The notes below the pieces were generated by a model. The model did no database searches and was not told the origin of the DNA. It was given only the letters and a program-made list of their open reading frames with translations. This document shows, piece by piece, positions 3,351 to 37,353 of a stretch of 37,372 nucleotides of DNA (position 1 is the stretch's first letter; every line of letters starts with the position of its first letter). Source of the stretch: a virus; IMG/VR virus record IMGVR_UViG_3300017987_000192, positions 1 through 37,372 of that record; one strand, written 5' to 3'. Both the position numbers and the translations under genes were made by a program.

Positions 3351-3938
3351 TCACGCTCCCAGCAGGTCTCGATCGGTGAGGCTGTACGGGTCGTTGCAGC
3401 GGAAGTCGTCGAAGCAGGCGACGCCCTGGGTGTGCCCGGGCTTGAGTCGGTCGAGCAGCGCCTGCTCTTCGACGAGCTCGTCGTCGACCGACGCGGCGAC
3501 GGCGGCCGCCCGGCCGAACGCAGCAAGGAAGAACCACTGCTTCTCGAGGCACTCGTAGTCGACACGGCTGCCGGCGTCGTCACAGTGGAACGCCATGAAC
3601 TCGACGATCGTCGGCTCGACGGTCGTCAGGATCTCGAGCTGGGCGGCGATGTACGCCGGCGTCATCAGCGGCACCCGGGCGAGCGCCTCGAGTACTCGCT
3701 GCTGGCGCACCGCGTCGCTGTCGCCGGCGGCGGGGTGCAGGTCGAGTAGCGCCTCCCAGCGGTCGAGCAGCTCGGGATCGGTCTGGGGGAAGCAGGCGTC
3801 GACCGACAGCGCGACCTGGTCGTCGACGCCGTCGATGCTGTCCGCCCAGGCGTCGAGCTCCTCGAGGTGCAGCGCGCCGTCGTCCCGGGACAGCGGTCCC
3901 CAGGGCAGCAGCTGCAGCATCCGGTCGTAGGTACTCAT
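3351..3938 (-). CDS. Baseplate protein, Mu gp48-like (YmfQ/DUF2313 family)
   Basis: The 195-residue protein begins MSTYDRMLQLLPWGPL, matching the start typical of the Mu gp48/YmfQ family, whose members begin with a YxxxLxxLLPxG motif. The family links the baseplate wedge to the fibres and is about 190-200 residues long, as here. An LDLHPAAGDSDAVRQQRVLEAL segment around residues 63-84 also fits the family, which has a P-x-T/G-D-x-x-x-R-R pattern. The start overlaps the stop of the gpJ-like gene by an ATGA quartet, implying coupled translation and similar stoichiometry. Confidence 0.8.
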   Translation of the reverse strand: MSTYDRMLQLLPWGPLSRDDGALHLEELDAWADSIDGVDDQVALSVDACFPQTDPELLDRWEALLDLHPAAGDSDAVRQQRVLEALARVPLMTPAYIAAQLEILTTVEPTIVEFMAFHCDDAGSRVDYECLEKQWFFLAAFGRAAAVAASVDDELVEEQALLDRLKPGHTQGVACFDDFRCNDPYSLTDRDLLGA

Positions 3939-5026
3939 GCGAGGTTCACCGTGATCGTGTTGGGCATGATCAGCTCGGCCGTGTCGCTGTCGAGCGTCGC
4001 GGTGACGTCCGCCGCCGGGGTGGTCAAGGTGAAGGACTCGACGCCGGCGACGGCCATAATCGCGGCGATCAGGCCGTAGACGAGCAGGGTGTCGCCCGGC
4101 TCGAGGCCGTCCATGTACGTCGGGATCGCCTCCTCGACGGCGTCCTCGACGGCGCCGGAGTCGTAGCCGTCAACGACGACCAGGTCGTCGACGGTGACGT
4201 TCTGGAGGACCTGGTCGGGCGCGAGAACCTCGAAGTCCTTCGTCGTGACGGGGCGGTTGTCGTCCAGGTGATCCTCGACGTCCGACAGCAGGCTGCCGCC
4301 GGGGAGATCGAGGTGGCCGTTGGAGCCGAGCGTCACGATGGACACGTCGATCGTGCCCAGGCCTCGGCGCAGCGGGTGCGTGTAGGCCAGGTGCACCCCG
4401 TCGACCTCCATCGCCCACTGGTACCAGTCCGACTCGGTGCCGCCGGCCGGCGGGTACTGAATCCGGGCGAGCAGGCGCACGAGCAGCGCTGCGTCGGTCT
4501 CCTCGTCGGTGCCGCCGGTGAAGTCGTCGGCCGCCTCACACGCGGTGTCGATGCCGGGCCCGGGCGCGCTGAACGAGAAGCTCTCACCGCTCGCCCAGTT
4601 CACCGCGACGCCGGTGTCGGTCGACTCCGCCTCGACGTCAACGCTGCCGCCGCCGGGAATCGTGCCGCCGGCGGTGAGCTCGCCGGCGTTGCCCTCGGCG
4701 TCGGTGAACGCGTCGCCGACGCTGTAGGTGCTGCCCGGCGTACCGGTGACGGTGACCTCGCCCTCGCTGCCGGTCGCGTCCTTGCGGTCGAGGTCGTAGA
4801 TCGCGCAGTGCCGCTCGAGGTTGTCGCTGTTCGCCGAGTCGGGGAACCGCTGGTCGAGCGACCAGTCGATGTACAGCGACTGGCCCTCGAGCAGCGACGC
4901 GATCACCTCGGCGCGGAGCCGCGCCTCGGACGCCGAGCCGGTGCTGGTGCCGGCGATGTTGCTGCGCAGCTTCGCCAGGATCTCGTCGAGCCAGTCCTCG
5001 TACGTCTTCGGCGTCAGGTCGGTCAC
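3935..5026 (-). CDS. Baseplate assembly protein J (Mu gp47-like wedge protein)
   Basis: This 363-residue protein matches the Baseplate_J family in length, order and motifs. It opens with an LTPKTYEDWLDEILAKL helix. A central segment near residues 170-215 (TGGTDEETDAALLVRLL, then GGTESDWYQWAMEVDGV) carries the family's G-G-x-D-x-E-x-D and R-x-R/L signature. The C-terminal part contains repeated V/D-rich strands and the expected YGLIAAIMAVAGVES helix. It forms the wedges of the baseplate around the hub. It overlaps both neighbours by four bases. Confidence 0.92.
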   Translation of the reverse strand: MTDLTPKTYEDWLDEILAKLRSNIAGTSTGSASEARLRAEVIASLLEGQSLYIDWSLDQRFPDSANSDNLERHCAIYDLDRKDATGSEGEVTVTGTPGSTYSVGDAFTDAEGNAGELTAGGTIPGGGSVDVEAESTDTGVAVNWASGESFSFSAPGPGIDTACEAADDFTGGTDEETDAALLVRLLARIQYPPAGGTESDWYQWAMEVDGVHLAYTHPLRRGLGTIDVSIVTLGSNGHLDLPGGSLLSDVEDHLDDNRPVTTKDFEVLAPDQVLQNVTVDDLVVVDGYDSGAVEDAVEEAIPTYMDGLEPGDTLLVYGLIAAIMAVAGVESFTLTTPAADVTATLDSDTAELIMPNTITVNLA

Positions 5027-5391
5027 GGGCCCACCTCTTGCCAGACCTCGAACGTCGCCGGCGGGAAGCCCGGGCCCTGCAGCGTGATGTACAGCGCCAC
5101 GCCGTCGGCACGCGCCTCGGCGACGGTGGAGATCTCCGCGACGATGCCTTCGTCGACGAGCGGCCGCAGCGCCTCCTCGACGAGCGCCGGCGCCCGGGCC
5201 GCGGCTGCCTCGGGGCTGCGCTCGCTCTGCAGCTCGTGCAGGCGGCTGCCGAACTCCAGGTCCCCGATCCGCGTGCCGCGCCGCGTCTCGAGGCAGAGGT
5301 ACACCTGCGTCGTGACGTCGTCGTCGACCTCGAACCGCCCGTCGGTCAGGACGAAGTCGCGCGTCGCGGGATCGATGCGGAGGTCCGTCAT
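5023..5391 (-). CDS. Baseplate wedge protein, Mu gp46/gpW-like (T4 gp25 fold)
   Basis: The 122-residue protein belongs to the phage GP46 family, related to the T4 gp25/lysozyme-like wedge proteins. It starts MTDLRIDPATRDFVLTDGRF and then has VYLCLETRRGTRIGDLEFGSRLHEL. The short E-x-x-x-G-x-x-x-x-x-x-x-G-S-x-L pattern is typical of the family. It works with gpJ in the sheath-baseplate junction. It is coupled by ATGA overlaps to the gp45-like gene before it and the gpJ-like gene after it. Confidence 0.88.
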   Translation of the reverse strand: MTDLRIDPATRDFVLTDGRFEVDDDVTTQVYLCLETRRGTRIGDLEFGSRLHELQSERSPEAAAARAPALVEEALRPLVDEGIVAEISTVAEARADGVALYITLQGPGFPPATFEVWQEVGP

Positions 5392-16091: not shown

Positions 16092-16589
16092 CTAGTCGTC
16101 CTTCGGCGCGTACTTCTCCCAGTCCTCGTCGCTCAGGCCGAGCTGGGCGTTGATCTGGGCCTGGTCGTCATCGATCTCGAGCTCGTCGTCGTCGTCGCGC
16201 TCGGCCGGCGGCTTCGGGGCCGTTCCGGTGGGCGCCTGCGACGACATCGACGCGACGAACTCCTCGGCCGCCTCGGGGTTCTGCTCGGCCATCACCAGCA
16301 GGCTCTTGTGCATCTTGGACTCGGGGTCCTTCGGCACTTTGCCCGCGGCGACGGCGCTGGCGACGATGGCCTGGGCGCGCGACTGCTGGCGCTTGTCCAG
16401 CTCGGCGACGACCGCGTCGGCGTCGGCGTCGTCGGCCAGGCCGAGGCGCTCGACGATGCGCGGGTCGATGGCGATCGGCTCGAGGCTCGCCTCGACGTTT
16501 GTCACCGGGGCGACCTTCAGCTCGACGAGCAGCTTGGTCTTCAGGTCGGCGTCCTGCTCCAGGGCGCTCGTGATCTCCTCCAGCTTCAT
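16092..16589 (-). CDS. Nested scaffold protein in the protease frame (Mu gpZ-like)
   Basis: An in-frame ATG at 16589 is preceded by AGGAGG at plus-strand 16598-16603, eight bases away, which is a better ribosome site than that of many late genes here. It would give a 165-residue acidic helical protein beginning MKLEEITSALEQDADLKTKL and ending EKYAPKDD. In Mu the gpZ scaffold is produced in the same way, from the 3' part of gene I. It would fill the prohead and be removed by the protease. The start and spacing are seen; production is inferred. Confidence 0.75.
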   Translation of the reverse strand: MKLEEITSALEQDADLKTKLLVELKVAPVTNVEASLEPIAIDPRIVERLGLADDADADAVVAELDKRQQSRAQAIVASAVAAGKVPKDPESKMHKSLLVMAEQNPEAAEEFVASMSSQAPTGTAPKPPAERDDDDELEIDDDQAQINAQLGLSDEDWEKYAPKDD

Positions 16590-17114
16590 GTTCGTGTCCT
16601 CCTGACCGCCCTCCGCGAGCGCCGCGGCGCCGCCGAAGAACGGGGTGTTGGTGAGAGCCAGGTGGTGCATCACTGGCCCCATGGGCTTGTTCGTTAGGGG
16701 GTGCTTGGGGTTGCGAAGCATGCCAAGGCTGACGTAGCCGTACTCGTCGTCCGTCCAGGACTGGCGGCCGCGCTCGTTCCAGCGCAGGTCGGTCGCCCAC
16801 AGTTCGTCATCACGCCACTCGTACCGGCCCACCACACCGAACCGCGGAGCCGGAATGTACGGCATGCTCGATGTGTGTCGCTCGTCGATCGGCGGGTCGA
16901 ATCCCAGTTCGACGCGGTTGCGCTCGACGGTCTCGGCCAGCGCCTGGTCGATGGTGACCGCGCCCGACGGGTGCCCCTCGTACACACCCGCCAACGCGAG
17001 GCAGACCTCGGTCGGCGGCTCGTCGCTGCGCGGCATCGCGACGGGCTCGCACAGCACGAGGTTGCCCAGGTCGATCCCCTGCATCAGCCGCTCGAGGTCC
17101 TCGCGGTTCATCAC
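16092..17114 (-). CDS. Prohead protease with C-terminal scaffold (Mu gpI-like)
   Basis: The 340-residue protein corresponds to Mu gpI, the head maturation protease. The N-terminal half includes WAERG-type strands and the motif MHHLALTNTPFFGGAAAL near residues 148-165; the H-x-x-ALTN-x-P pattern is typical of the Mu I protease. The C-terminal half from Met176 is helical, charged and acidic, as expected for scaffold. A strong internal start there (see 16092-16589) gives the free scaffold. The start ATG at 17114 overlaps the stop of the portal-MuF gene, and GGAGGGG lies just upstream. Confidence 0.85.
   Translation of the reverse strand: MMNREDLERLMQGIDLGNLVLCEPVAMPRSDEPPTEVCLALAGVYEGHPSGAVTIDQALAETVERNRVELGFDPPIDERHTSSMPYIPAPRFGVVGRYEWRDDELWATDLRWNERGRQSWTDDEYGYVSLGMLRNPKHPLTNKPMGPVMHHLALTNTPFFGGAAALAEGGQEDTNMKLEEITSALEQDADLKTKLLVELKVAPVTNVEASLEPIAIDPRIVERLGLADDADADAVVAELDKRQQSRAQAIVASAVAAGKVPKDPESKMHKSLLVMAEQNPEAAEEFVASMSSQAPTGTAPKPPAERDDDDELEIDDDQAQINAQLGLSDEDWEKYAPKDD
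16598..16603 (-). promoter_or_regulatory. Internal ribosome-binding site AGGAGG for the nested scaffold
   Basis: On the minus strand AGGAGG lies eight bases before the ATG at 16589, inside the protease reading frame. It supports a separate translation start for the scaffold. Confidence 0.75.
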
Positions 17115-28621: not shown

Positions 28622-30313
28622 GTGGCGGTACCAGCAGATGCGATTCGGGACCTGGTGGACGAGCTGAGGGCTGCGCCGGCCGCTCGTCATCGGGAGCTGA
28701 GGCAGCGGTCGGCGACGCGCTGGGGGGTGTCCGAGCGGACGGTGTACCGGCTCACCCAGGCGGCGATGGGTCGCCAGCGGCAGACGCGGTCGGACGCCGG
28801 CCAGCGGGTACTGAGCGCGGCCGTCGTCGCGCAAGCGGCGACGATGCTGGCCCGCACGAAGACCAAGAAGGAGAAGATCGTCGGTACGCTGCCGGTGATC
28901 CTCGACACGCTCGAGCGTCGCGGCCTGGTCGAGCCGGGAGCGGTGTCGCCAGCGACGCTGGGCCGCTGCCTGCGCGAGTACCGGCTGAGCCGGCGCCAGC
29001 AGAAGGCTCCCAGCGCGTCGATCCAGCGGATCTCGCGCCACCCGAACCACGTGCACCTGGTCGACGCGTCGATCTGCCTGACGTGGTACCTGCGCGAGGA
29101 CGGCCGGATCGTTCGCACGCCGGACGTCGAGCGGCGGTTCTATGCGGGCAAGCCGCACGAGTTCGCCAAGCTGCGCCAGATCCTGTACCGCTACATCCTC
29201 GTCGACCACTGCACGAACGCCTTCTTCGCCCACTACTACTACAGCTCGGGGGAGCGCGCCGAGGACCTGATCGACTTCTTGCTGCGGGCCTGGTCGGACA
29301 AGGCCGAGCCGCTGCAGTACCCGTTCCGCGGGGTGCCGCTCGTGCTCGCCGCCGACCAGGGCCCGGGGATGAAGGCCCAGACCACCCGCAACCTGCTCGC
29401 GAACCTCGACGTCGAGATCGACCTGCACATGCCCGGCGTCGCCCGGGCGTCCGGCGCTGTCGAGAACATGATGGGCACGTGGGAGCGGTGGTTCGAGGCG
29501 CGGCTGCTGCTGTCCCGGCCGATGGAGAGCCTCGGGGCGCTCAACGACCTGGCGCACGCGTACGCCATGTCCATCAACGCCCACCCCCGCTACAAGGTCG
29601 GCCGCCACGGGATGACCCGGCGCGACGCCTGGGTCGGCTGGATGCGGGACGAGTACCTGCGCACCTGCCCCGATCACGACACCTTCTGGATGCTCGCCCA
29701 CCGCGACGCGATGGAGCGCACCGTCGACAACCGCGGGCGGATCTCGGTGGCGCTGCCGGGCGCCGGCAAGACGGCGTTCGAGCTGCGCGGCGTCGTCCAC
29801 GTCGGCGAGAAGGTGTCCGTCCGGCTGCACCCGTACCAGGAGCGGACGGTTCGCGTCTGGAACGCCGACGGCGAGGAGCTCGAGGCAATCCGCCTCGAGG
29901 CGAACGAGCACGGCTTCCTCGTCGGCGGCCGGGTCGGCGGCTTCGCCGGCGAGGACTACGACCGCCACCGCGACCAGGAGGTCGACCGCGTCCGCCGCGC
30001 CGCGGCCGAGGAGTCCGAGCGCCTGACGCACGACGAGGCCTTCGGCGATCCGGTGAAGGAGACCCCGCCGATCCCGATGATCGGCGCCCCGTTGACGGGC
30101 CGGCCGGCGCTGTCCGAGCGCGCCCGGCTCGAGCGGGTGACCTACACCCAGGTCGAGGCGCTGCGCCGCGTCCGCGACGCCGTCAACCGACCCCTGACCC
30201 GCGACGAGTACGCCCACGTCACTGCCGCCTTCGACGGCGAGGTGATCGACGGCGACGAGCTCGACCGCCTGATCGAGGAGCTGCCCGCCCTGGCGCAGTC
30301 CGGGACGGCGTGA
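28622..30313 (+). CDS. DDE transposase, MuA-like
   Basis: Starting at GTG 28622 (GGGGG just upstream), the protein has 563 residues. Mu A has 663. An N-terminal HTH (SATRWGVSERTVYRLTQAAM) binds DNA. The catalytic RNase H-like core has D148 (LVDASI), D245 (AADQGPG) and E281 (SGAVENMMG), a DD35E spacing. A C-terminal beta-barrel resembling the Mu transposase C-terminal domain follows (VSVRLHPYQERTVRVWNADG). It integrates and replicates the phage by strand transfer, acting on the end repeats, together with the ATPase encoded next. The Mu N-terminal enhancer-binding domain is apparently reduced. The gap to the upstream stop is ten bases. Confidence 0.93.
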   Translation: MAVPADAIRDLVDELRAAPAARHRELRQRSATRWGVSERTVYRLTQAAMGRQRQTRSDAGQRVLSAAVVAQAATMLARTKTKKEKIVGTLPVILDTLERRGLVEPGAVSPATLGRCLREYRLSRRQQKAPSASIQRISRHPNHVHLVDASICLTWYLREDGRIVRTPDVERRFYAGKPHEFAKLRQILYRYILVDHCTNAFFAHYYYSSGERAEDLIDFLLRAWSDKAEPLQYPFRGVPLVLAADQGPGMKAQTTRNLLANLDVEIDLHMPGVARASGAVENMMGTWERWFEARLLLSRPMESLGALNDLAHAYAMSINAHPRYKVGRHGMTRRDAWVGWMRDEYLRTCPDHDTFWMLAHRDAMERTVDNRGRISVALPGAGKTAFELRGVVHVGEKVSVRLHPYQERTVRVWNADGEELEAIRLEANEHGFLVGGRVGGFAGEDYDRHRDQEVDRVRRAAAEESERLTHDEAFGDPVKETPPIPMIGAPLTGRPALSERARLERVTYTQVEALRRVRDAVNRPLTRDEYAHVTAAFDGEVIDGDELDRLIEELPALAQSGTA

Positions 30314-30323
30314 GGAGGAGACG

Positions 30324-31517
<1,194 letters not shown>

Positions 31518-32937: not shown

Positions 32938-33274
32938 CCCCTACCTGACGACCGAGGAGGTCGCCGAGATCACCAGCAGGTCGACCCGCACCGTGCAGCA
33001 GTGGTGCGAAGAGGGTCGCGTGCGCGCGATCCGCGTTCGGTCCAAGTGGCGCATCTACTGCGATGCGTTCGGGATCGCCGCCCCGCCGATGCCGCGCCGC
33101 CCGAGCTGGCGCGTCAATGAGGTCGCCGACTGGCTCCGCATCTCGCGCCAGTCGGTCTGGCGGCTGATCCAGGACGGCGAGCTCGCCGTCGTCCGCCGCT
33201 GGTCCCGGCTCTGCATCGAGCGCGATTCCCTGCTCGCCTACATCCAACGAGCGATGGACACGGAGGCAGCATGA
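32927..33274 (+). CDS. Tandem excisionase/MerR-type HTH protein
   Basis: The 115-residue protein contains two similar DNA-binding units. The first (residues about 6-45) reads LTTEEVAEITSRSTRTVQQW ... RVRAIRVRSKWRI. The second (about 62-105) reads RVNEVADWLRISRQSVWRLI ... GELAVVRRWSRLCI. Each is of the helix-turn-helix 17/excisionase type. The GTG start lies inside the end of the GemA-like gene, and it overlaps the endolysin start by four bases. It is probably a regulator, possibly of late transcription or of excision. Two copies in one chain suggest binding to a direct repeat. Confidence 0.75.
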   Translation: MTSSPYLTTEEVAEITSRSTRTVQQWCEEGRVRAIRVRSKWRIYCDAFGIAAPPMPRRPSWRVNEVADWLRISRQSVWRLIQDGELAVVRRWSRLCIERDSLLAYIQRAMDTEAA

Positions 33275-33855
33275 GAACTGTCGTCATCGATCCCGGGCAC
33301 GGCGGCAGCGATCCCGGCTGCGTCCACCACGGCCTGGTCGAGGCCGACTGGACCTGGAGCCTCGCGAAGCGCCTCGTCGACGTCGTCGCGCCGGACGAGC
33401 AGCTTCGCGCGACGCTGACCCGGTACGAGCGGGACGCGTCGATGTCGCTGCGCTCCCGCTGCCGGATGGCCAACGCGCTGGACGCCGACCTCTTCCTGTC
33501 GATCCACGTCAACGCCAGCCGGCGCCCGTCGCCGCGGGGGCTCTGGCTGCTGCACGCGTCGAGCGCCTACCCCGAGACGAAGCGGGCCGCCTGCGTCGTC
33601 CTCGACCATGTGCGGCAGGGCCTCGCCGAGGTCGTCCCGCCGGCCTGGGTCGACCGGGATCCCCGGACGGACATGATGGCGAGCGGTCACGGCCTGACCG
33701 TCCTGCGCTCGACGAGGATGCCCGCCCTGCTCGTCGAGTGCGGCTTCGCCTCGAACCCCGACGACGCCGCGCTGATCCAGGACGAGACGTTCCAGGAGCT
33801 GCTCATCGGCGCGCTCGCGCTGGGGATCGTCCGCTGCTTCCGGGAGACCGACTGA
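33271..33855 (+). CDS. Endolysin, N-acetylmuramoyl-L-alanine amidase (Amidase_3)
   Basis: The 194-residue enzyme contains all motifs of the Amidase_3 family: IDPGHGG with zinc ligand His10, Glu24 as the second ligand, SIHVNA with His79, and LVECGF with catalytic Glu156. It cleaves the bond between MurNAc and the peptide stem. No signal peptide or binding domain is present, so a holin must let it out; the small membrane protein at 36193 is a candidate. It is in the early-strand operon, overlapping the HTH gene before it and, by one base, the next gene. Confidence 0.9.
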   Translation: MRTVVIDPGHGGSDPGCVHHGLVEADWTWSLAKRLVDVVAPDEQLRATLTRYERDASMSLRSRCRMANALDADLFLSIHVNASRRPSPRGLWLLHASSAYPETKRAACVVLDHVRQGLAEVVPPAWVDRDPRTDMMASGHGLTVLRSTRMPALLVECGFASNPDDAALIQDETFQELLIGALALGIVRCFRETD

Positions 33856-34729: not shown

Positions 34730-34974
34730 CCCGCGCGAAGAACCTCCATCACCGCCTGAACCTCTGGGCCGGCGACCTCGGTGCGTACATCACCGCGCGC
34801 ATCCAGGCCGGCGACCTCGAGGAACGCCTGGGCCGCATGAAGGCGACCCAGGCGCTCGAACACGTCGAGGGCTTGCTCGGCGTCGTCGACGAGCTCGGCG
34901 ACAGCGAGACGGCCTCACAGGGCGACCTGGCTCACGGCCTGCGCCCCACCCCGAGACCACGGAGGACCGCATGA
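34726..34974 (+). CDS. Small helical hypothetical protein
   Basis: The 82-residue protein starts with GTG 34726, overlapping the ASCH stop (GTGA). It is helical and charged (DLGAYITARIQAGDLEERLG, then MKATQALEHVEGLLGVVDEL) with a short Pro/Arg tail. No motif is recognised. It is followed directly by a lipoprotein gene (ATGA overlap). Its place between the endolysin and lipoprotein genes gives no firm clue. Confidence 0.6.
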   Translation: MTRAKNLHHRLNLWAGDLGAYITARIQAGDLEERLGRMKATQALEHVEGLLGVVDELGDSETASQGDLAHGLRPTPRPRRTA

Positions 34975-35372
34975 ACCGCCCCATCACCCTGCTCGTCCTG
35001 CTCGTCGCAGTCGTTGTCGGCTGCGAGAGCTACGACACCCCCGACAACGACGACCAGGTCGTCGACCAGGCCGACGCCGTCGTCGCCTGGGGGGAGGTCC
35101 AGTACATCGACACGACGCCCGAGCTGAAGAGCGGGCACCGCGTCGCCGACCTCGAGGACCTCGACGTCGGCCGCGTCCGGCTCTACCTCGAGGACGGCCC
35201 CGACGACCCCTCGGACGTCGCCGTGCTGGTGACCGCCAAGGGGTTCTACACCCCGACGGTCTGCCACTGGCACTACGACGAGGCCGACGCGTCCGTCACC
35301 GTCTGGACCTACAACGCGACGACCGGCGACCAGGAGCGCGCGACGTTCACGTTCGTCGTTTTCGGCCGATGA
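34971..35372 (+). CDS. Small lipoprotein in the lysis region (spanin candidate)
   Basis: The 133-residue protein has a lipoprotein signal: MNRP, a hydrophobic run at 5-16, and VVVGC with lipidated Cys18, followed by Glu19. The mature part is acidic and beta-rich (DVGRVRLYLEDGPDDPSDVA, ATFTFVVFG). It should be attached to a membrane facing the periplasm. Its position 1.1 kb beyond the endolysin fits an outer-membrane spanin, but spanins are usually Pro-rich and partnered by a coiled-coil inner-membrane protein, which I do not see here. Superinfection exclusion is another option. Confidence 0.7.
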   Translation: MNRPITLLVLLVAVVVGCESYDTPDNDDQVVDQADAVVAWGEVQYIDTTPELKSGHRVADLEDLDVGRVRLYLEDGPDDPSDVAVLVTAKGFYTPTVCHWHYDEADASVTVWTYNATTGDQERATFTFVVFGR

Positions 35373-36190
35373 CCGATCCCCAGGCCCACATCCAAACCCA
35401 GGCCGAGCTCGACGAGCTCGCCGCCTTCAAGCGCCTCGAGGGCTTCCTCGAGGACTTCGAGCCCCCGGAGGAAGACATGTCCACCCGCAAAGAGATCGAA
35501 GCCCACATCCGCGACCGGGTCGCGAAGGATCCCGAGCTGATCTTGAACCCCCCGGCAGTGGCCGTAGCCCTCGCCGAGAAGTTCGACGCCGACGCCAAGC
35601 GCGCCCAGGTCATCGTCCAGCAGGTGTTCGAGGAGATCCGCGCCCACTGGACCGAGAAGAACTGCGTCACCACCAACACGCGGCCGTTCAAGTTGCAGCT
35701 GCTGCGGAACTGGATCGTGCGCAACGTGGAAGCCGAGCTGCCGCCGCCGACCACGCCGACGATCGACGCCCGGTTCAAGGAGGTGTTCGGATCGGGCTGT
35801 AGCTCGAACCTCTCTGCCGATCTGCGTCGCCAGCTCGAGAAAGAAGGCCTCAAGGTCCGGTCGGCGCAGACGCCGGCGAAGAGTTGCCAGCCGGAGCCCT
35901 CCAGCCCACGGCCGCCGGCCGCGGATCCAGACTCGTCGTACGTGTTCGAGGCGGTCCGGCTCGTCGACCAGGCCGAGCACGAGAAGCTCTGGCTGGTCCT
36001 GCAGTCCTGCAAGGCCGCCGGCGTGCCGGTGCCCGCCAAGGTGAAGAACTACTTCAAGAGCCGCGAGGCGACCCGCAAGGCGCAGCCCCAGGTCGTGGCG
36101 CGGTTCCCGCTGAAGGACAACGAGCCCGTGCCCTTCAACAAGCAGTGGCTCAAGGGCGCGACGCACGTCCGCCTGGTCGTCGGGAAGTAG
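35369..36190 (+). CDS. Hypothetical early protein with a possible second start
   Basis: The 273-residue protein is helical and soluble, with a Pro/Ser-rich linker in the middle (SCQPEPSSPRPPAADP, about 171-186). The start at 35369 overlaps the previous stop (ATGA) but has no ribosome site. An in-frame ATG at 35477 has GGAGGA four bases upstream (35467-35472) and would give a 237-residue protein starting MSTRKEIEAHIRDRV. Either the longer acidic N-terminus is real or the shorter form is the true one; both may be made. No family is recognised. A second small domain near the end (PLKDNEPVPFNKQWLKGATH) looks beta-rich. Confidence 0.65.
   Translation: MTDPQAHIQTQAELDELAAFKRLEGFLEDFEPPEEDMSTRKEIEAHIRDRVAKDPELILNPPAVAVALAEKFDADAKRAQVIVQQVFEEIRAHWTEKNCVTTNTRPFKLQLLRNWIVRNVEAELPPPTTPTIDARFKEVFGSGCSSNLSADLRRQLEKEGLKVRSAQTPAKSCQPEPSSPRPPAADPDSSYVFEAVRLVDQAEHEKLWLVLQSCKAAGVPVPAKVKNYFKSREATRKAQPQVVARFPLKDNEPVPFNKQWLKGATHVRLVVGK
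35467..35472 (+). promoter_or_regulatory. Internal ribosome site GGAGGA with ATG at 35477
   Basis: GGAGGA lies four bases before an in-frame ATG in the gene at 35369. It is better than the site of the upstream start and so decides between the long and short forms. Confidence 0.5.
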
Positions 36191-36192
36191 CA

Positions 36193-36465
36193 ATGGCCAC
36201 CATCAACGTCCCCACCCCCAAGGACCGACCGCTCCCGACCGATCCGGGGCGCAAGTACCGGATGGCCTACACCGGCCTCTGGATCCTCACCGGGTTGACG
36301 GTGCTGGCTGCCGTCGGGCTGTTCGTCGTCGGCGAGCACGCGTCCGCCGCCCGGTGCGTTCAGGCCGGGATCGGCTCCGTCGCCGGTCTCCTCGCCATCT
36401 ACATCGGCGGTCAGGCCCACGTCGACCGTCACCGCGGCGAACCCCTTGGCCCGCCATCATCGTAG
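36193..36465 (+). CDS. Small two-helix membrane protein (holin candidate)
   Basis: The 90-residue protein has a charged N-terminus, a first membrane segment at about 27-46 (TGLWILTGLTVLAAVGLFVV) and a second at about 55-73 (CVQAGIGSVAGLLAIYIGG). A short charged tail ends PLGPPSS. This is the layout of a class II holin. It lies three bases after the previous stop, in the same operon as the endolysin. Without a matching family the holin role is inferred from topology and context. Confidence 0.6.
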   Translation: MATINVPTPKDRPLPTDPGRKYRMAYTGLWILTGLTVLAAVGLFVVGEHASAARCVQAGIGSVAGLLAIYIGGQAHVDRHRGEPLGPPSS

Positions 36466-36730
36466 ACGTCGCTGGCACTGCTGTGCGGCCTGCGACCACT
36501 GGACCCTGATCCGTGACCTCAACAACGGCCCTCGAGGCTCGTGCCGCGCCGGGCACGGCCTGCGCGTCGCCGGTCCGGAGTACTGCCTCTGGGACTGGCG
36601 CGGCACGACCCACGCCCTCGAGGGGAAGAGCTGCCCCAACCACACAGGACGGGTCGTGTTCGCAGACCTCGACGTGTTCAAGGACCCGGCGACCTGGCTA
36701 CCAATCCTGATGTACGGAGGACGACGATGA
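36446..36730 (+). CDS. Small Cys/His-rich protein, probable zinc binder
   Basis: The 94-residue frame starts with TTG at 36446 (overlapping the holin candidate by 20 bases) and has a basic N-terminus RHHRRRRW. The residues CCAACDHW (11-18), SCRAGHGL, YCLWDWRG and SCPNHTG provide six Cys and several His for zinc. No family is recognised. A conserved-looking WD-rich centre suggests a compact fold. The start is uncertain because the only ATG in the frame is near the end. The stop overlaps the next gene (ATGA). Confidence 0.55.
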   Translation: MARHHRRRRWHCCAACDHWTLIRDLNNGPRGSCRAGHGLRVAGPEYCLWDWRGTTHALEGKSCPNHTGRVVFADLDVFKDPATWLPILMYGGRR

Positions 36731-37353
36731 CGGTGATCGCGATGGCGATGGACCACACAGGGACCTGGCTCGCCAGCGACGGCCAGGGAACCTCGCACGT
36801 CTGCCACGACTTCGGCCCAAAGCTGGTGGAGCTCCCGCAGTCGGTGATCGCCGGGTTCGGCGACAGCTACCTGCTCGGTACCTGGCTGCGTCGTTCGTTC
36901 GCATACGCCATCCAGGAGTTCGCGAAGGACGCTCGCCCGCCGGCGACGTGGTCGCAGCCGTGGCTGGGTGCCGCGTGGCTGGACTTCCTCGAGGACCAGT
37001 GGCTACACGGCTGGCGGCCCTGGGCGAACAAGCAGGGGTACGGCGAAGCCGACGGGGATGGCGCGTCGGTCGTGTCCGGCGTGGGGCTCATCGCCTGGCC
37101 GGGTGGCGCGGTTCATCTCTCGCCGGACGGCGCGGTCCTTCCGGTCTGGAACCGCTGGGCGATCGGTTCGGGTTCGGAGGCCGCGCTCGGCTCTCTCGAG
37201 TCCACCGTCCGATGGACGAGCGGCAAGCGTCGCGTCATCGAGGCCGTCCGGGTGGCGAAGCTCCTCTCACCCACGTGCGGCGGCGAGACTTACGTCGTGC
37301 ATTCTACGCGCCCCAAGGAGGACCCCCAGTTCGTTGCATCGACGCCGCAGTAG
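36727..37353 (+). CDS. Ntn-hydrolase related to HslV/proteasome beta subunits
   Basis: The 208-residue protein starts MTVIAMAMD. Removal of Met would leave Thr1, the nucleophile of this superfamily. Other hallmarks in mature numbering are Asp17 in ASDGQGT (same number and surroundings as in HslV), Lys31 in FGPKLVEL (Lys33 in HslV), VIAGFGDS at 39-46, and AIGSGSEAALGSL near 144-156, the typical active-site loop. HslV has about 175 residues; the extra part lies near 70-110 and is Trp-rich. No HslU-like unfoldase is encoded. GGAGGA lies five bases before the ATG. It is the last gene before the right phage end. Confidence 0.75.
   Translation: MTVIAMAMDHTGTWLASDGQGTSHVCHDFGPKLVELPQSVIAGFGDSYLLGTWLRRSFAYAIQEFAKDARPPATWSQPWLGAAWLDFLEDQWLHGWRPWANKQGYGEADGDGASVVSGVGLIAWPGGAVHLSPDGAVLPVWNRWAIGSGSEAALGSLESTVRWTSGKRRVIEAVRVAKLLSPTCGGETYVVHSTRPKEDPQFVASTPQ

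Follow-up and report, generated by a model that had tools for sequence, protein, structure and literature searches.

A divergent proteasome-like N-terminal-threonine hydrolase predicted in a Mu-like transposable phage

The window analysed here (the whole stretch of viral DNA, 37,372 nt) carries at positions 36727–37353 of the + strand a gene for a 208-aa proteasome-like (HslV/BPH-type) N-terminal-threonine hydrolase, as indicated by a match to PHROG 1040, a leave-one-out HMM, an AlphaFold2 (AF2) model and structural matches. Judged by its sequence, the gene encodes a strongly divergent member of a known phage threonine-hydrolase family. In the explanation that we consider probable on the basis of sequence and model, the protein is a divergent group I proteasome-like (HslV/BPH/AAH/PPH) member, catalytically intact as far as its residues are concerned and of a kind carried by many tailed phages, which would act as a Thr1 peptidase by the mechanism proposed below.

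Homology, active site and predicted fold

The hydrolase matched PHROG 1040 ('peptidase HslV family') over residues 1–197 with an E-value of 5.4e-9. An HMM of 10 phage homologues, from which the hydrolase was excluded to avoid circularity, recognized it over residues 1–194 with an E-value of 6.8e-10, and none of 2000 shuffled copies was reported even at E 10. When a profile of the hydrolase together with phage homologues was compared with solved structures, BPH (7e-13) and HslV (1e-11) were found. The match to the Pfam Proteasome family (PF00227) was only marginal (E 0.052; 13.6 bits, with the gathering cut-off of 22.4 not reached), and a phmmer search of the PDB with the single sequence gave no match at E up to 10. 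No close relatives were found in IMG/VR scans with the hydrolase's own sequence, with the hydrolase plus the Siara group, with its C-terminal segment or with the Siara group alone, or in one bacterial genome scan; a plasmid collection and 591 genomes of two phyla also yielded none, both searches having been run without a positive control, so that they show little.

Conservation and fold were assessed with an alignment of 68 related IMG/VR phage proteins (18–27% identity). T2, D18, K32, G43, S47, G118, G147, and G149 are invariant in the hydrolase and all 68 relatives. The predicted nucleophile is Thr2, which becomes Thr1 once Met is removed (codon 36730–36732, + strand; Thr in 68/68 relatives). 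Asp18, corresponding to Asp17 (36778–36780, + strand; Asp in 68/68), is aligned with HslV Asp17, and Lys32, which is Lys31 after Met removal and the equivalent of HslV Lys33 (36820–36822, + strand; Lys in 68/68), is aligned with the conserved HslV lysine. The AIGSGS loop (residues 145–150; 37159–37176, + strand) corresponds to AIGSGG in HslV, and its two GxG-motif glycines (G147 and G149) are kept in all relatives, as is the oxyanion glycine G43. The SDGQGT stretch corresponds to GDGQVT/S in HslV, and the spacing is HslV-like. The complete proteasome/HslV active-site set that the preliminary description had listed (Thr after Met, Asp17, Lys31, the AIGSG loop and the DGQGT spacing) is present as stated, and the three residues whose conservation it had proposed to check do not vary among the phage relatives. 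That the triad is conserved in phages so different from one another speaks for a catalytic role that is probably real.

With the family alignment as input, AF2 predicted a proteasome-like fold (pLDDT 80.6, pTM 0.80), in which the conserved proteasome beta fold is accompanied by flanking helices. The predicted strands comprise residues 4–9, 12–17, 33–36, 40–44, 120–124, 127–131, 137–139, 144–148, and 189–194, and the helices residues 48–68, 79–102, 151–159, and 166–180; pLDDT falls below 50 at residues 70–73 and at the C-terminal end (205–208). The best Foldseek matches to the model were HslV, BPH and proteasome beta subunits, with HslV ranking first (E 1e-9) and 1117 chains found at E < 0.001. 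In VIA-align comparisons, Z reached 20.1 for BPH and 19 to 20.1 for HslV entries, and residue 2 of the model falls on residue 1 of the template, i.e. Thr on Thr1. The fold prediction called for in the preliminary description returned a proteasome-like fold with structural matches to HslV and BPH. Folding of the single sequence gave no usable model (pLDDT 35), and because the AF2 model depends on a family alignment of ∼22% identity, the fold and the homology claim are to some extent tied together; the model supports the homology without being independent proof of it.

The active site of the hydrolase (DGQ, IAGFG, AIGSGS) is nearer to that of HslV than are those of other phage relatives (DSAG, MGFTSS, AVGCG), and the hydrolase shares with HslV (ClpQ, the peptidase of HslUV) the fold (Z 19–20), the triad, and the DGQ and AIGSG motifs. 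However, its helix region (residues 48–102) is longer than that of HslV, the window encodes no HslU, and our own HMM built from six bacterial HslV sequences scored it at −1.5 bits (E 0.09), compared with 21.7 bits (E 6.7e-9) for the phage-family HMM. HslV sensu stricto was rejected, as the HslV profile does not recognize the protein and NCBIfam contained no match to it. The earlier assignment as an HslV/proteasome Ntn-hydrolase thus holds for the fold and the catalytic residues and fails for HslV in the strict sense. The top structural match is BPH, the betaproteobacterial proteasome homologue (5ovs/5ovt; Z 20.1, rmsd 2.6, 172 residues), which has no known unfoldase partner; the identity, however, is 13%, and the BPH gene is bacterial, not phage.

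Fuchs, Alva and Lupas (2021) reported 22 new homologues of the proteasome, among them PPH and AAH, both of which occur in phages (PMC8665760). The group I homologues (BPH, AAH, CPH, and PPH) resemble the hydrolase in their compact beta fold, their triad, and in having neither a propeptide nor a known AAA partner, and AAH and PPH also in being phage-carried (PMC8665760). PPH, which comprises ∼140 residues and is missing H2 according to Fuchs et al. (PMC8665760), was rejected because the hydrolase has 208 residues and contains the second helix (helices 48–68 and 79–102). AAH or CPH is possible as its subfamily. The members of PHROG 1040 (e.g. Moorella phage MTATph1 CDS0188, Salmonella phage S133 orf61, and Stenotrophomonas phage Siara 023) are phage genes that share with the hydrolase the N-terminal Thr (Ser in the Siara group), Asp17, Lys and the GxG loop. 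The hydrolase is nevertheless only 15–27% identical to the members aligned, its helix region is longer, and its carrier is a transposable phage; it also has GSG, in contrast to the GCG of most IMG/VR relatives.

The gene and its carrier

The open reading frame at 36727–37353 is a real gene, with an ATG start, a TAG stop, and a 208-aa product. Its ATG overlaps the stop codon of the upstream ORF (ATGA, 36727–36730), and the good ribosome site claimed for it is borne out by GGAGGA just 5′ of the ATG (ribosome-binding region TACGGAGGAC, 36712–36721, + strand; AATCCTGATGTACGGAGGACGACG immediately 5′ of the ATG). GC content per codon position (0.66/0.54/0.87) resembles that of the adjacent phage genes, with GC3 (0.87) slightly below the 0.93–0.95 of the larger neighbours.

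The assignment of the carrier to the transposable phages was confirmed by genes for a MuA-type transposase (28622–30313, + strand; phrog_310, E 9.3e-43) and a MuB-type DNA transposition protein (30324–31517, + strand; phrog_296, E 4.5e-33). They lie in a rightward run that extends from 27.5 kb to the contig end and further contains an endolysin gene (33271–33855, + strand; phrog_435, E 4.7e-29), small genes, and the hydrolase gene. The leftward run encodes the portal, the head maturation protease (16092–17114, − strand; phrog_328, E 7.8e-22), which belongs to another family than the hydrolase, the major head protein, the sheath of a contractile tail, and tape measure and baseplate proteins. 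The head genes are thus on the other strand from the hydrolase gene and at least 14 kb away from it, and the endolysin is in the same run. The MuA protein itself sits on a long branch: in IMG/VR, GenBank phages and bacterial genomes, even the best matches reach only 26–34% identity. Between the endolysin and hydrolase genes, small orphan genes without informative family matches occupy positions 34971–36730: a lipoprotein-like ORF (34971–35372), a 273-aa ORF (35369–36190), a small membrane protein that is holin-like by appearance only (36193–36465, + strand; weak DUF981 match, E 0.0014, below the cut-off), and a Cys-rich ORF without a family match that overlaps the hydrolase ATG (36446–36730, + strand). 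In agreement with the preliminary description, no HslU-like ATPase is present: no HslU/ClpX-type AAA_2 domain is encoded in the window. Its further statement that the hydrolase gene is the last one at the phage end is unproven, because the contig merely stops 19 nt past the gene, the IMG/VR record is classed as linear and has no end repeats, and a search of the window for phage-end repeats revealed no convincing terminal repeat.

Relatives in other phages and their gene context

Related genes are widespread in phages. The Moorella phage homologue matches 179 INPHARED phage records, the Siara homologue matches 16 Stenotrophomonas and Pseudomonas records, one pattern pair retrieved at least 351 further loci from IMG/VR, and annotated viral models of the HslV-like family are present in BFVD. 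The INPHARED and IMG/VR counts, the existence of a named PHROG family, and the survey of Fuchs et al. 2021 (PMC8665760) contradict the earlier statement that phages rarely carry such genes. The rare feature appears to be the transposable-phage setting, for which no other Mu-like case was found. The profile search of Mu-like phages that had been proposed gave PHROG 1040 in 0/50 full MuA-bearing records, and conversely the MuA transposase was found in 0/50 related Ntn-bearing phage records. No hydrolase gene was located near MuA in the examined stretches of 80 viral and 43 bacterial loci taken from MuA alignments, a scan with the MuA sequence alone gave no matches, and in the literature we found no transposable phage reported to carry a proteasome homologue. 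The absence from transposable phages is only suggestive, since many of the records are fragments.

Several relatives have features of their own. HslV-like genes occur in actinobacterial phages, namely Microbacterium phage Pumpernickel (1405–1944 of its locus) and Gordonia phage Daredevil (BFVD A0A345MIR8); Fuchs et al. 2021 found no actinobacterial phage with AAH (PMC8665760). Aeromonas phage 2L372X carries tandem HslV-family genes, 2L372X_210 and 2L372X_211 (1414–2376 of the locus), the second of which is more divergent. In a Stenotrophomonas/Pseudomonas phage subgroup (locus positions 4677–5258, 3692–4258, and 1501–2085), the residue after Met is Ser in place of Thr, so that the nucleophile may have changed. 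In Pseudoalteromonas phage J2-1 (1456–2622 of the locus), the HslV-like domain is followed by a C-terminal extension of ∼200 residues.

Among the best 80 IMG/VR relatives, which are the best-scoring loci of one clade and hence related rather than independent, a gene for the terminase large subunit, portal or major head protein lies within 3 kb of the HslV-like gene in 44 loci. All of these neighbouring genes (56/56) are on the same strand as the HslV-like gene, and the terminases belong to several families. A terminase is near the gene in at least 34 of the 80 loci (42%), compared with a rough and uncontrolled expectation of ∼20% (∼8 kb of a 40 kb genome). In Siara and 20Sep420, the homologue also lies upstream of the terminases, at a distance of a few genes. 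The 2021 survey found neither an AAA partner nor an informative gene context for the proteasome homologues (PMC8665760), and the frequent terminase/portal adjacency in the relatives gives a first testable hint at a role.

Proposed activity and alternatives

Most likely, the protein is an unpaired N-terminal-threonine peptidase whose targets in lytic growth would be proteins of the phage or the host. Methionine aminopeptidase removes Met1 before small second residues such as Thr, and the host enzyme would strip Met1 from the hydrolase to expose Thr1, with no propeptide involved. By analogy with the family, Thr1 would be the nucleophile, assisted by Asp17 and Lys31 (the Lys33 equivalent), and the subunits would assemble into a homo-oligomeric ring that encloses the active sites. 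As it is not an HslV and has no HslU encoded alongside it, the protein may do without a dedicated unfoldase in lytic growth; its substrates would be phage or host proteins that are small, unfolded or specifically presented. This mode is argued from absence in one, possibly incomplete, contig. From its place in the rightward run, where it follows MuA, MuB and the endolysin, the gene is likely to be a lytic-cycle gene that the prophage does not express.

Other roles were weighed against this peptidase reading. The product might be a phage HslV that docks on host HslU and redirects the host HslUV protease, as the closeness of its DGQ, IAGFG and AIGSGS motifs to HslV and the first rank of HslV in the Foldseek search would suggest; with the six-HslV profile scoring so far below the phage-family profile and no NCBIfam match, we consider this quite improbable. 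A role in virion assembly or DNA packaging, in which the hydrolase would trim a head or packaging protein, is suggested by the gene context in the relatives: the terminase, portal and head genes, 56 in all, that lie within 3 kb in 44 of the 80 loci share the strand of the HslV-like gene, and the Siara and 20Sep420 homologues are shortly upstream of terminases. This role is unlikely for the protein studied here, as the window has its head genes far away on the opposite strand and encodes a separate head maturation protease (phrog_328); moreover, the 80 loci are non-independent members of one clade, and the association may be positional only.

A non-degradative Ntn enzyme, e.g. a sequence-specific ligase or amidase, possibly monomeric, has a precedent in connectase, a proteasome-like homologue that is a monomeric protein ligase (PMC8665760), and would be consistent with the missing unfoldase in the window and with a helix region (48–102) that exceeds that of HslV in length. 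However, the predicted architecture is that of ring-forming members, with four flanking helices and no evident S3/S4 insertion, whereas connectase is without the first helix pair (PMC8665760), so this activity is distinctly unlikely. If the gene came from a host and were either decaying or recently captured, serving the phage in no way, this would account for a GC3 below that of the larger neighbours and for the failure of the IMG/VR scans (own sequence or close set), the bacterial scan and the 591 genomes of two phyla to yield a close relative. Such an origin is very improbable for an open frame with an overlapping start, a good ribosome site and all catalytic residues kept, whose nearest profile is phage-derived and not that of host HslV. 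For the anti-defence role suggested earlier no backing was obtained, as the hydrolase had no match in the defence-gene library PADLOC.

No experimentally established function for the phage threonine-hydrolase family was found in the literature. It is an unlikely generalization that phage proteasome-like hydrolases are assembly- or packaging-associated threonine peptidases working without an unfoldase, a class that would also have entered transposable phages. In summary, such genes are already known in hundreds of phages, and what is new here is the divergent member in a Mu-like phage. The phage threonine hydrolases thereby gain a new type of carrier, the Mu-like transposable phage, together with a strongly divergent member.
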